Assembly (NCBI RefSeq): GCF_900111195.1
Contig: NZ_FOGL01000012.1
Coordinates: 1 to 60,621, forward strand
Source: Gracilibacillus ureilyticus
Lineage (GTDB): Bacteria; Bacillota; Bacilli; Bacillales; Amphibacillaceae
Direction: 5' to 3'
Length of the DNA: 60,621 nt
The position numbers and the translations under genes are program-made. The stretch's first letter is position 1, and each line of letters opens with the position of its first letter. The notes below the pieces were generated by a model. The model had not been told where the DNA came from and ran no database searches. It worked only from the letters and a program-made list of their open reading frames with translations. This document shows, piece after piece, positions 10,595-60,621 of this stretch.

Positions 10595-11110
10595 TCACTC
10601 TGGTAAAACCTGTTTAAGTTCGTCTGGAGAGTTTTCCCAAAATTCCGGCTTATACTTCCTGAGAAAGTCTCCTAACAGCTTTCTTGACTTTTCATCCATA
10701 TGGTCAACAATAAAATGTCCTTTCATTGATTTATCCATATGATTCACATGCTCAGGCATCGACTTATATGCACGTTTGATCGAACGGTCCACGCGGATCT
10801 CGCTTCCTGCCACCCCGTGATAATATGGCCCGTTCTCACCACGTTCCACTGTCACCCACACAATCCAGTACAATTTACCGTTTGGAACTTCCTCTTTATG
10901 TGGCAGAAATTTCACACGTCTCTCGACTTCACTTCTTGCATGCATTGCACCCATATCAACGAATGCCCTGTCTTCATTCGGGTCAATGATAACCGGAGAG
11001 ATATTTTCCAGACTAATGGAACCTACGCCATAACCGCCATGTCCGTCTGTTGAATCATCTTTCATTATCGTAAAAGGATTTGATTTCTTCTTTTTATCTT
11101 GTTCACTCAT
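10595..11110 (-). CDS. ywhD: YwhD family protein
   Basis: A 171-residue soluble protein recognisable as YwhD, a family restricted to Bacillaceae, with the conserved SNPFTIMKDDSTDGHGGYG opening and AFVDMGAMHARSEVE segment. There are no membrane segments or known catalytic motifs; function unknown. It retains its place between pbpG and ywhB as in B. subtilis, although ywhC and ywhA are absent here. ATG is preceded by GAGGTTTT. Confidence 0.88.
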   Translation of the reverse strand: MSEQDKKKKSNPFTIMKDDSTDGHGGYGVGSISLENISPVIIDPNEDRAFVDMGAMHARSEVERRVKFLPHKEEVPNGKLYWIVWVTVERGENGPYYHGVAGSEIRVDRSIKRAYKSMPEHVNHMDKSMKGHFIVDHMDEKSRKLLGDFLRKYKPEFWENSPDELKQVLPE

Positions 11111-11219
11111 GAGAAAACCTCCTGCTCATATACTGTTGTCACTATTGTAGCATTTTGTTTTCTTAATTTCACATTTGCAGGTACAATAAAAGATATATTC
11201 CCAAAAAGGAGAGATACAT

Positions 11220-11402
11220 ATGCCTTATGTAACCATTCAAATGCTAGAAGGACGGACAGACGAACAAAGAAAAGCTCTAATTGAAAAAGTAACCGATGCG
11301 GTGGTTGAGACAACAGGTGCCACCCGTGAAAAAGTAGTCGTCTTCGTCGAAGATATCGATAAACGCAATTACGGAGTTGGCGGAAAAAGATTAGTTGATT
11401 AA
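11220..11402 (+). CDS. ywhB: 4-Oxalocrotonate tautomerase-family enzyme
   Basis: A 60-residue tautomerase-superfamily subunit. After removal of the initiator Met the N-terminus is Pro (PYVTIQMLEG), the catalytic base of the family, and the conserved second-half segment KVVVFVEDIDKRNYGVGG is present. B. subtilis YwhB is a hexameric tautomerase of unknown physiological substrate. Ribosome site AAAGGAGAG is at good distance. It is divergent from ywhD and directly upstream of repeat array 2. Confidence 0.92.
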   Translation: MPYVTIQMLEGRTDEQRKALIEKVTDAVVETTGATREKVVVFVEDIDKRNYGVGGKRLVD

Positions 11403-11448
11403 TGAAAGAATCAGGGTGATAGAGTTCACATCTTATGTGGTTGGAGCG

Positions 11449-11858
11449 GGGCTGAAGGCCTTCGCTCTTTTTTTCTTTCACGCCATGGGGTTCGGACACC
11501 GGCTGAAGCTCTTCGCTCTCCTTTTCTTTCACGCCATGATGTTCGGAGACCGGCTGAAGCTCTTCGCTCTCCTTTCCTTTCGAGCCATGGGGTTCGGAGA
11601 CCGGCTGAAGCTCTTCGCTCTCCTTTTCTTTCGAGCCATGGGGTTCGGACGCTGGCTGAAGCTCTTCGCTCTCCTTTCCTTTCGAGCCATGGGGTTCGGA
11701 CGCTGGCTGAAGCTCTTCGCTCTCCTTTCCTTTCAAGCCATGATGTTCGGACGCTGGCTGAAGCTCTTCGCTCTCCTTTCCTTTCGAGCCATGGGGTTCG
11801 GACACCGGCTGAAGCTCTTCGCTCTTCTTTTCTTTCACGCTATGGTTTTCAGAACCAC
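11449..11858. repeat. Tandem repeat array 2, 51-bp unit, 8 copies
   Basis: The TTCGCT core recurs exactly every 51 bp, at 11461, 11512, 11563, 11614, 11665, 11716, 11767 and 11818. Each unit runs CTTCGCTC, 14 bases, GCCATGG or GCCATGA, then TTCGG and a GCTGAAG link. Two subtypes alternate irregularly (CCATGGGG and CCATGATG). Because 51 is a multiple of three and no stops occur, the array is open in frames on both strands, but the apparent starts have no ribosome sites. It fills the gap between ywhB and a small membrane-protein gene. The same period and core recur in the array at 60.4 kb. Confidence 0.95.
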
Positions 11859-11912
11859 CATTTTATATTTTTCCCATTTATGATAAAATATTGGTAAAAG
11901 GATGTGACGTTA

Positions 11913-12110
11913 ATGATTCTGACAATATTTGCTTCCATCGGCGGGTTCCGGATTGGGGATATGCTGTTTGCTTTACTTAGCTTTTTCGGATTTCTCACTT
12001 TACTTGCTATTATCATTATCTTCGCTCTCAAGCGAAGCAGCGGAAAAAGAGACCAATTGCAGCGTATGGAAGAAAAGCTTGATCAATTATTGGATGAAAA
12101 AAGGCGATAG
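11913..12110 (+). CDS. Small single-span membrane protein
   Basis: A 65-residue protein with a hydrophobic stretch at about 13-40 followed by a basic, coiled-coil-prone tail (QRMEEKLDQLLDEKRR). This arrangement fits small DUF4083-type proteins of Bacillaceae, but I do not recognise it with certainty. ATG at 11913 is chosen over GTG at 11904 because AAAAGGA ends at 11902. It lies immediately after repeat array 2, so its promoter must lie within about 50 bp or inside the array. Function unknown. Confidence 0.65.
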   Translation: MILTIFASIGGFRIGDMLFALLSFFGFLTLLAIIIIFALKRSSGKRDQLQRMEEKLDQLLDEKRR

Positions 12111-12150: not shown

Positions 12151-12654
12151 TTATTGCTTTAATCTGTGAATATAATGCCATGCCTCTTGCATATCATCTT
12201 GTGTATAGTTTGATTTCTTTTTCACTTCCTGCACTTTCGCTTCCACTTCTTCTTTAGTCAAGTCATCAAAATAAAGCATTGTTGCGACTAATTCAAGGAA
12301 ACGCGAACTTTTCTCTTTTAACTGGTTAACGACGTCTTCCACTTCCGGTATATCTACTGGGGAATGTGTCAGAAAATCCTCCCCCTGCTCTGTTACCTGA
12401 TAACGATATTGGTAATAATTGCTCTTTTGCTCTTTCACCTCTGAGACGAATCCTAAGTTTGTCAGTTCTTCCATCCGTAAAGTCAGCTCTTCTGAATATG
12501 GACCATAGAAGTGAAACGTATACTTCTCTTCAAAAGGGTAGCCAAGCTTTTTCATAATATAAATGATCTTCTGCAGCTTTTTTCGTCCTACAATCCCGGC
12601 AGATGAAGCAATCACTTTGACGAGTTTCGCATGATTGTCTAACAATGATAACAC
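12151..12654 (-). CDS. ywgA: YwgA family protein
   Basis: A 167-residue helical protein matching B. subtilis YwgA: a winged-helix-like N-terminal half (RKKLQKIIYIMKKLGYPFEEKY, then FYGPYSEEL), and an acidic helical C-terminal half. The YGPYS segment resembles the Panacea/YwgA group of HTH-like domains. No DNA target is known. It is separated by nine bases from the end of ywfO, the same pair as in B. subtilis, so the two are likely co-transcribed. Confidence 0.87.
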   Translation of the reverse strand: MLSLLDNHAKLVKVIASSAGIVGRKKLQKIIYIMKKLGYPFEEKYTFHFYGPYSEELTLRMEELTNLGFVSEVKEQKSNYYQYRYQVTEQGEDFLTHSPVDIPEVEDVVNQLKEKSSRFLELVATMLYFDDLTKEEVEAKVQEVKKKSNYTQDDMQEAWHYIHRLKQ

Positions 12655-16080: not shown

Positions 16081-16365
16081 ATCCCCGTTGTGAGGATCAA
16101 ATATCTTTTCATCATCAATCTAAGGCTCAACGACCCCCGTCGTGATGAATAAATACCTTTTCATCGTCAACCAACAGCTCCTTCATCCCCGTTGTGATGA
16201 TCAAATACCTTTTCATCATCAATCTAAGGCTCAACGATCCCAATTGTGATGAACACATACCATTTCACCATCAATCACAGGATCAACCACCCCGGTTGTG
16301 ATGAATAAATACCTTTTCATCATCAACCAACAGCTCCTTCATCCCGGTTATGAGGATCAAATACC
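16081..16365. repeat. Tandem repeat array 3, 52-bp unit, about 5.5 copies
   Basis: Units begin at about 16081, 16133, 16185, 16237, 16289 and 16341, with an exact 52-bp step. Each starts ATCCC(C/G)GTTGTGATGA, continues with AAATACCTTTTC and ATCATCAA, and ends in one of two alternative tails (AAGGCTCAACG or CAGCTCCTTC). Within each unit TTGTGATGA and TCATCATCAA are imperfect inverted repeats. The tail types alternate except in the fourth copy, suggesting past duplication of a two-unit block. The array fills most of the 508-bp gap between pta (3' end) and the menC-like gene (5' side). The last copy is partial. Confidence 0.94.
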
Positions 16366-43328: not shown

Positions 43329-43400
43329 AAGGCGGAGTCCTTGCACGGGGGAGGCTCAGATCCCCGCGGATGGGAGTAGGAGTTTGCTCCTTCTCGGAGT

Positions 43401-43520
43401 TCCCGCTCTTCTTGCAGATTTCAGCGCTCTTTTTGCAACTTTCGCTCTCTTCTTGCAGATTTGGCGCTCTTTTTGCAACTTTCGCTCTCTTCTTGCAGAT
43501 TCAGCGTTCTTTTTGCATCT
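43401..43520. repeat. Tandem repeat array 4, 20-bp half-units in a 40-bp period
   Basis: CGCTCTTTTTGCAACTTT-like and CGCTCTTCTTGCAGATTT-like half-units alternate; TTTTGCA recurs at 43431, 43471 and 43511, exactly 40 bp apart, giving three 40-bp periods or six 20-bp half-units. On the minus strand it reads as TGCAAAAAGAGCG and TGCAAGAAGAGAGCG. Directly upstream is a short inverted-repeat stretch (GGAGTAGGAGTTTGCTCC). It lies between the convergent recQ and aminopeptidase genes. Confidence 0.88.
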
Positions 43521-48871: not shown

Positions 48872-50783
<1,912 letters not shown>

Positions 50784-59134: not shown

Positions 59135-59298
59135 GTTATCACCTCTATGTCATTATAATTGATTAATCGGAAACTGTACAGTATAACGTTATGCTTTTCA
59201 TTCGAATATTATGAGCATATTTTTTCCATGGTCATTATTTTATTTGTTACAATTTTCCTGTATTATAAATTAAAATACGATGGAGGGTGCAGATCTTT

Positions 59299-60231
59299 AT
59301 GAAGAATCACGTCCAATTAGGGAAATCCGGTCTTTATGTCAATCCGGTTGGCTTAGGGGCTAATGCAGTTGGCGGCCACAATCTTTATCCTAATTTAGAT
59401 GAAGAACAGGGCATGAATGTTGTTAGACAAGCATTAGAAAATGGCATCAATTTTATTGATACTGCCTACATTTATGGACCTGAGCGTTCTGAAGAATTAG
59501 TAGGAAAAGTAGTGAAGGAAAGCGGTTCGAGAGATAACGTCATTATCGCTACAAAGGCTGCACATAAAATTGCAAATAATGAAACCATCATTGATAATTC
59601 ACCGCAATTTTTGAAAAAATCTGTTGAGCAGGCACTGCAGCGTCTCCAAACAGATTATATCGATTTGTTCTATATCCACTTCCCTGATGAAGATACACCA
59701 AAGGATGAAGCGGTTGGGGCTCTCAAAGAATTAAAAGATCAAGGTAAAATCAGGAGTATCGGTGTTTCCAATTTCTCGCTGGACCAGTTAAAAGAAGCAA
59801 ACAAAGATGGCTATGTTGACGTGATTCAGTCTGAGTACAATTTATTTAAACGTCAAGCGGAAAAAGACTTACTTCCGTATACGGCTGATAATAATATTTC
59901 TTTTGTACCATATTTCCCGCTTGCATCAGGCTTATTGGCTGGTAAATATGATGAGAACACGACATTTGATGATCTTCGTGCCAATGATCCGCTGTTCCAG
60001 GGAGAAACATTTAAGCAAAACCTGAAAAAAGTGGAGCAATTAAGACCGATCGCCAAACAAAAGAATGTCGAGCTTGTCCACCTTGTACTAGCCTGGTATT
60101 TGACCCGTGACAGTATTGATGCAATTATTCCTGGCGCGAAACATGCAGACCAGGTCATAGACAACTTAAAAACATTAGATGTTCATTTAACAGAAGATGA
60201 GATAGATCAAATAGATGATATCTTTAAATAA
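59299..60231 (+). CDS. Aldo/keto reductase
   Basis: A 310-residue (beta/alpha)8 NADPH-dependent reductase. The catalytic tetrad is visible: D54 and Y59 in [16 protein letters not shown]86 in IIATKAAHK and H127 in LFYIHFPD. The C-terminal [15 protein letters not shown]-binding segment is present. It is similar in type to B. subtilis IolS/YhdN stress reductases; substrate unknown. ATG at 59299 is preferred, because GGAGGGTG overlaps the alternative GTG. Divergent from the merR gene. Confidence 0.92.
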
Positions 60232-60308: not shown

Positions 60309-60369
60309 TTGTTGTATTTCCTTTTTTCATTATCATTTTGCACTATCCTCGGCGGTATAATACCTCTAG

Positions 60370-60621
60370 ACCACCTCCGAACGACTTCGCTCAAATTTTT
60401 CCGGGCGCCATGACTTTCAGACCACCTCCGAACGACTTCGCTCACACTTTTCCTGACGCCATGGCTTTCAGCGACCCTCCGAACCACTTCGCTCAAATTT
60501 TTCCGGGAGCCATGGCTTTCAGCGGCCCTCCGAACCACTTCGCTCAAATTTTTCCGGGCGCCATGGCTTTCAGACCTCCTCTGAACCACTTCGCTCACAC
60601 TTTTTCAGGCGCCATGACTTT
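60370..60621. repeat. Tandem repeat array 5, 51-bp unit, 5 copies (open to the right)
   Basis: CTTCGCTC recurs at 60385, 60436, 60487, 60538 and 60589, exactly 51 bp apart. Each unit has CTTCGCTC, 14 bases, GCCATGG or GCCATGA, then CTTTCAG and a CTCCGAAC link. The period, the core words and the 14-base spacing equal those of array 2 at 11.4 kb, but the linker words differ. It runs off the window end. The minus-strand frame is open without stops but has no ribosome site. Confidence 0.95.

Follow-up and report, generated by a model that had tools for sequence, protein, structure and literature searches.

The 51-bp tandem repeats of Gracilibacillus ureilyticus form one dispersed intergenic family with a near-exact step, a palindromic skeleton, linkers that change faster than this skeleton, and a placement after genes. 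Both arrays found in the window (the whole analysed stretch of 60,621 nt) belong to it, and 66 complete N-free units were identified at 15 sites of the 4.07-Mb draft genome by a scoring matrix at 34 bits or more, with weaker, partial and single copies existing besides. At least two complete units were present at 10 of the 15 sites. We are confident of the family and of its mode of change, in which units would be gained and lost inside each locus by replication slippage or unequal recombination; such a process, acting within each locus, would make neighbouring units alike. As a whole, the arrays are probably best explained as a species-restricted (one genome per species), dispersed intergenic VNTR of STAR/MIRU-like kind with an action at DNA level, and in our reading they act, if at all, at that level. 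The features concerned, in window coordinates unless the contig is named, were the following.

11450..11845, + (CTTCGCTC orientation): first 51-bp tandem array, with eight CTTCGCTC starts at 11460, 11511, ... 11817
60368..60621, +: second 51-bp array, same family; 5.0 copies lie inside the window and more follow past an N gap
11443..11468, +: hairpin followed by a T-run, in the first-array unit after the tautomerase gene, intrinsic-terminator-like
11220..11402, +: tautomerase gene (4-OT type; PF01361, E 4.6e-23), ending about 48 bp before the first array
11913..12110, +: small open frame of 65 aa downstream of the first array, no Pfam match
12151..12654, -: gene facing the 65-aa frame, sole match Replic_Relax, below the curated cut-off
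10595..11110, -: YwhD-family gene (PF08741, E 4.9e-81), on the far side of the tautomerase gene
59287..60231, +: aldo/keto reductase gene, 3' end toward the second array
61274-63454 of the contig, -: type IA topoisomerase gene, beyond the second array
16083..16365, strand not assigned: 52-bp array of the same length class and other sequence, 5.4 copies
43400..43517, strand not assigned: array of the second length class (20/40 bp, CTTCTTGC type; Tandem Repeats Finder)

An earlier note on this DNA had described eight units stepping exactly 51 bp at 11449-11858, and this array was confirmed by Tandem Repeats Finder (11450-11845, period 51, 7.8 copies, 91% matches, 0% indels). The core that two arrays about 49 kb apart were said to share across a 14-base gap was also recovered, with 13 matches of CTTCGCTC-N14-GCCATG at up to one mismatch in the window, 8 of them from the first array and 5 from the second, where shuffles expect 0.00. 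The final G of GCCATGG was not the constant letter it had been taken for, being present in only 5 of 8 units of the first array and 3 of 5 of the second; two units of each array read GCCATGA, and the last unit of the first array reads GCTATGG. For the second array, placed earlier at 60370-60621, the 51-bp step stood (60368-60621, period 51, 5.0 copies in the window, 85% matches, 1% indels by Tandem Repeats Finder) and the 252-bp extent did not, as an N gap in the assembly lies directly past the window end and the array then continues to about 61,170 of the contig. This array is located between convergent genes, since the aldo/keto reductase gene on the + strand and the type IA topoisomerase gene on the - strand face each other. 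The gene at 12151..12654, beyond the first array, has a relative in 17 of 17 genus genomes searched.

Other elements were also observed in the window. The array at 16083-16365 carries the hairpin TGATGAA/TTCATCA and a higher-order step of 156 bp, and is homologous to an array of contig C34 (L119:4775-5019, z 12.7). A 122-bp element in two copies (97% matches), hairpin-like by eye, occupies positions 1-238 at the window edge.

The skeleton of the window family was CTTCGCTC-N14-GCCATG-N3-TTCRG-N7-CYGAA-N3, and the genome-wide consensus of the family was CTTCGCTC-N14-GCSAWG-N3-TTCRG-N7-CYGAA-N3. The core named in the earlier note thus held as a part of the skeleton but not as the whole of it, a second conserved block (TTCRG-N7-CYGAA) being also present. 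The exact core occurred 27 times in the 4.07-Mb draft, and its letter-reversed control did not occur. A start-to-start step of 51 bp was found in 54 of 56 successive same-strand matches, a count in which one array was scored on both strands, the remaining two steps being 48 and 50. Searching with an inner gap of any length from 4 to 30 bases gave exactly 14 in 22 of 23 CTTCGCTC...GCSATGG matches and 15 in one; this is the least biased figure on spacing, because the other searches and the ungapped matrix favour a fixed value. Indels came to 0-2% across arrays in Tandem Repeats Finder, which allows them. Fixed spacing of conserved blocks is a feature expected of a helically phased protein-binding array, and it was found here with the free gap (22/23) as well as with the matrix, where the result is partly ascertained.

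Three other arrays surveyed in the same genome have 52-bp units that lack the skeleton of the 51-bp family, which shows that such arrays can do without it. N gaps were present in 10 of the 19 own stretches with unit matches and three of the 19 reach contig ends, thus the assembly tends to break at arrays. Plasmid and phage collections searched with the first array gave no match, and an exact-pattern scan of named genome contigs gave six matches, all in unrelated phyla or classes and near the estimated chance level.

The 51-bp unit is an imperfect palindrome having two dyads, CTTCGC...GCSAWG and TTCRG...CYGAA (dyad B), with centres 25.5 bp apart. Reflection symmetry about one centre was 0.456, against a mean of 0.241 and sd of 0.050 (51 reflections, 68 units); the second centre half a period away must follow, since a periodic array with one such centre always has another. 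Whole-unit palindromicity of single consensuses was mostly inside the shuffle range, and the symmetry of the family became visible only across many units. At positions 35 and 45 of dyad B, the 15 site consensuses carried A..C (8), G..T (5), G..C (1), T..C (1) and A..T (0), an association with Fisher p 0.003 when the T..C row is excluded. Single units (n=68) carried A..C 31, G..T 20, A..T 10, G..C 6 and T..C 1 times, so Watson-Crick pairs do occur at these positions (A..T and G..C). TTCAG-N7-CCGAA and TTCGG-N7-CTGAA are reverse complements of each other, and dyad B therefore looks like one asymmetric site in two orientations, not a compensated base pair, which would favour A..T and G..C.

Units within a site were more alike than units of different sites (83.8% against 64.8% identity), as the earlier note had seen for the arrays of the window. 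Between sites, skeleton columns were 85.7% identical and linkers 46.2%; within sites the values were 92.4% and 76.2%, a contrast less affected by circularity. A simple tree of the 15 site consensuses contained 129 substitutions, giving 0.88 changes per skeleton column and 4.00 per linker column (partly circular). Per-column change between site consensuses was over-dispersed, with a variance/mean of 2.16; none of 400 homogeneous simulations with a comparable total of change exceeded 1.29. The between-site conservation and the constant consensus length are partly circular, because the sites were found via the skeleton, the skeleton columns were picked by conservation, and all consensuses are 51 long by construction of the ungapped matrix. 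Local homogenisation around a constrained skeleton, also proposed earlier, appears supported by these values with some circularity.

Gene context was determined for the own sites with genes called on both sides (16 of 19 stretches), giving 10 convergent, 6 tandem and 0 divergent, and all 16 sites stand after at least one gene. Of these contexts, one depends on a low-scoring unit (C38, 15.4 bits) and a second on a frame of 67 aa at the end of a contig; small frames overlapping an array were ignored, and the tautomerase gene was used for the first array. Background gene gaps of 150 bp or more in this genome were 16 convergent, 70 tandem and 33 divergent, which makes the convergent count (10/16) significant at p 7e-6 and the divergent count (0/16) at p 0.006. 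Sites remained more often convergent when compared with non-divergent background gaps (10/16 against 16/86). Genes were called by open-frame length only, with at least 50 aa around arrays and at least 100 aa in the background. A 17th site, a single copy in contig C12, has a tandem context. In relatives, the 51/52-bp arrays with both flanks called were 7 convergent, 8 tandem and 0 divergent, a count that omits three one-flank arrays and one divergent 50-bp array of 2.3 copies in G011.

The earlier note had expected the pattern to recur in relatives and to be non-random in period and position across the genome. The second expectation held, and the first failed for the exact tandem skeleton, which was absent from 16 congeners. 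It was also absent from 60 other genomes of an order-wide draw, which includes one congener and one family member. With one mismatch allowed, it was absent from the congeners and gave single matches in 2 of 142 other family genomes. The nearest congener, G011, has 89-90% identity in three flanking proteins and carries a diverged homologous family with a 52-bp step; its L098 array scored 40, and 60 shuffles reached no more than 20 (z 11.9), the homology resting on consensus-to-consensus alignment with 60 shuffles per pair. By nhmmer with the 51-bp profile, nothing better than E 0.18-0.83 was obtained in the G011 samples, and there was no match at E up to 1 in another congener, G013.

Two own sites were compared across the genus, with 16 congener loci each, several of which are incomplete or lack a found neighbouring gene. 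At the site of the first array, a 52-bp array unlike it lies in G011 between the small open frame and the next gene, and another is present nearby in G003. At the site of the second array none was found in G011; downstream of this topoisomerase gene G012 and G002 carry 52-bp arrays that differ in sequence. Congeners compared at two further own sites, one congener for one site and six for the other, showed no 51/52-bp array. Arrays have thus turned over between species at the sites compared. In G008, adjoining arrays with a 20-bp and a 20/40-bp step (L203:945-1440) were observed beside a relative of the gene that flanks the own array of contig C25.

Sampled stretches were surveyed for tandem arrays lying outside long open frames. 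The periods were 20, 20, 20, 51, 51, 51, 52, 52, 52, 60 and 122 in 458 kb of the own genome; 8, 21 (seven times), 27, 41, 50, 51 (four times) and 52 (ten times) in 783 kb of congeners; and 20, 21, 27, 28, 33, 33, 34, 42, 42, 51, 52 (six times), 66, 66, 67, 68, 120, 127 and 216 in 733 kb of other genera of the family, where the entries 66, 66, 67 and 68 come from a single locus in G139 whose repeat makes it look CRISPR-like. A thin part of the survey, with 20 stretches and 366 kb, covered the other families of the order and gave 20, 20, 52, 85, 124, 130 and 213. A period of 51 or 52 was found in 21 of 34 newly found arrays of 30-100 bp; the raw count of 28 of 41, from a sample that was not blind, includes the second window array twice and five arrays known beforehand (two in the window, one in C18 and one each in G011 and G003). 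The genus of G031 was sampled further after two such arrays in its first stretch, and without this follow-up the count is 19 of 31. By reading of the comparison and of the consensuses, some of them outside the comparison, the 51/52-bp class comprises about 18 families of sequence. E. coli K-12, sampled over 250 kb, had a single array outside annotated genes, with a period of 98 between fre and fadA, and 150 kb from two Bacillales plasmid records had no 51/52 array.

All eight 51/52-bp arrays of G011 (L097-L100) lie on one 63-kb contig, C21, so array density varies; 120 kb from six other contigs contained only a 50-bp array, and the arrays may cluster. Single arrays of the class were also seen with perfect stems, one of 18.5 copies and a 7-bp stem in another genus of the family (L229:7216-8177, G043) and one of 6.0 copies and a 10-bp stem in another family of the order (L244:6590-6903, G168). 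Members of a 20-bp unit class (CTTCTTGC...GCTC), with up to 20.9 copies, are found at window 43400-43517, L126:13751-14167 and L109:7324-7436, and similar 21-bp arrays were observed in G011 (L098:10529 and L105:76).

A length of 20-21 bp is about two helical turns of DNA and 51-52 bp is five. The idea of five helical turns, put forward in the earlier note, is indirectly supported by the 51/52-bp step common to unrelated arrays in relatives. A wider proposal, which we regard as rather doubtful, would be an order-wide rule of length and not of sequence, with steps of 51-52 bp or 20-21 bp and little between, at gene ends; DNA geometry would be selected or imposed by array-making (one face of the helix, a supercoil sink between convergent genes, or duplication by a fixed step), and the species-specific sequence would be filler. 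Were such a rule to hold across whole genomes, the geometry of the DNA would be conserved where its sequence is not, which is rarely seen. In a set of relatives step and position are kept and the sequence is replaced, so step and sequence are separable, which bears on what STAR-like repeats do. No recognised description of these arrays or of a 51/52-bp rule was found in the open-licence literature; heptamer tandem repeats are named elsewhere as the most abundant intergenic ones (PMC6344855).

As to what maintains the arrays, selection might act on the double-stranded DNA (skeleton, spacing and five-turn step) and not on an RNA hairpin, most likely via a putative DNA-binding or architectural protein, or via gyrase, where transcription ends, which we put forward tentatively. 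The putative architectural protein or gyrase might bind the arrays between converging polymerases. A role at DNA level fits, because convergent ends are preferred, asymmetric dyads are retained and the step is fixed. A serious rival, which could well be true though we do not favour it, is a neutral or selfish minisatellite that arises by slippage at quasi-palindromes and is purged from promoters and genes, its skeleton being shared by recent descent. Restriction of the family to one species with divergence in the nearest relative agrees with this, and so do the other sequences that other species carry elsewhere or at the same places. The lack of sites in divergent gaps (0/16), where harm would be greatest, is likewise what purging predicts, but the convergent preference exceeds the effect of purging divergent gaps. 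The slower change of skeleton than of linker columns (partly circular) and the 51/52-bp step of unrelated arrays in relatives also speak against neutrality.

It is unlikely that the element acts as RNA, with the arrays transcribed as 3' untranslated hairpins or terminators of preceding genes. All 16 sites with both flanks stand after a gene, and in the first unit that follows the tautomerase gene a hairpin precedes a T-run (11443-11468), so the first array may have developed out of a terminator or beside one. The two overlapping terminator-like matches at this place are not significant by count alone, since shuffles give a mean of 1.2 (sd 1.1), and no interior unit of the first array was flagged as terminator-like. 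Of 32 unit consensuses in the 51/52-bp class, 11 had significant perfect stems (combined p 5.5e-7, with homologous arrays treated as independent), but none of the 6 from the 51-bp window family did, and the pair 35/45 leans away from Watson-Crick. Folded as RNA, the first array was no more stable than its shuffles (z -0.26 on one strand and +0.70 on the other), and single units ranged from z -0.93 to +1.63. Rfam at gathering scores found in the whole window only a SAM riboswitch (S box, 84.2 bits) at 48874-48988 and nothing at the arrays, and its covariance models gave no match on 11300-12000 at E up to 1. The G.T/A.C strand signal, by reading, pointed along the gene in about 4 of the 6 tandem contexts. 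Mobilisation of a REP/BIME-like palindrome by a RAYT (Y1 transposase) is highly improbable: dispersed single and tandem palindromic units after genes and two Y1_Tnp matches in the genome would suit it, but no family unit of at least 14 bits was found in the 5.0 and 4.5 kb around these matches (L067, L068). Of the two, the second is incomplete and has next to it a long open frame which we take to be TnpB-like, and the first (IS200-type, C18:9367-9723) has an unrelated 52-bp array about 220 bp downstream (L107:9943-10215). Coding repeats of 17 residues can practically be set aside. The unit length is a multiple of three and long open frames traverse the first array (11107-11838 on the - strand and 11395-11883 on the + strand), which an annotation would likely mistake for genes; these + and - frames overlap each other, sister arrays in the own and other genomes have 52-bp units, and conserved columns come in whole blocks and not by codon position.

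Among known systems, the REP/BIME sequences of enterobacteria are palindromic, stand after genes singly or in arrays, and in the case of BIMEs are associated with gyrase. The 51-bp unit resembles them in being an (imperfect) palindrome placed after genes singly or in arrays, and differs in its step, 51 bp against 98 in the E. coli K-12 array between fre and fadA, which is presumably a BIME, and in having no family unit near either Y1 transposase match. Regular spacing of repeats is shared with CRISPR, whereas here the whole 51-bp unit repeats and no unique spacers exist. MIRU of mycobacteria are dispersed intergenic tandem repeats with units of similar size, and the present family is like them by description, being dispersed, intergenic and tandem.

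The closest known kind would be, in our reading, the STAR elements of staphylococci, and the arrays may be regarded as a STAR-like, locally homogenised intergenic repeat. By Purves et al. (2012), STAR elements of Staphylococcus are described as intergenic and dispersed, with a short constant motif and a longer locus-specific spacer, as tandem repeats of about 50 nt in which copies of one locus are alike, loci are distinct and each species has other loci, and as not known to have a function or a mode of spread (PMC3532100). The 51-bp family agrees in being intergenic, in tandem units of about 50 nt and in a constant motif with locus-specific spacer, and also in differing genomic positions per species, at the own sites compared with congeners. 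It differs from that description in its near-exact unit length, in a skeleton that is palindromic and spread through the unit, and in that most sites with known flanks lie between convergent genes. The GC-rich STAR core TGTTGNGGCCC had no match in the window at up to one mismatch and no exact match in the fetched loci of the own genome; it was found exactly in 1 of 265 fetched loci (L091, of the congener G013), which is not one of these arrays. The arrays are therefore not STAR elements, though alike in look and change, because the defining motif TGTTGNGGCCC is absent.
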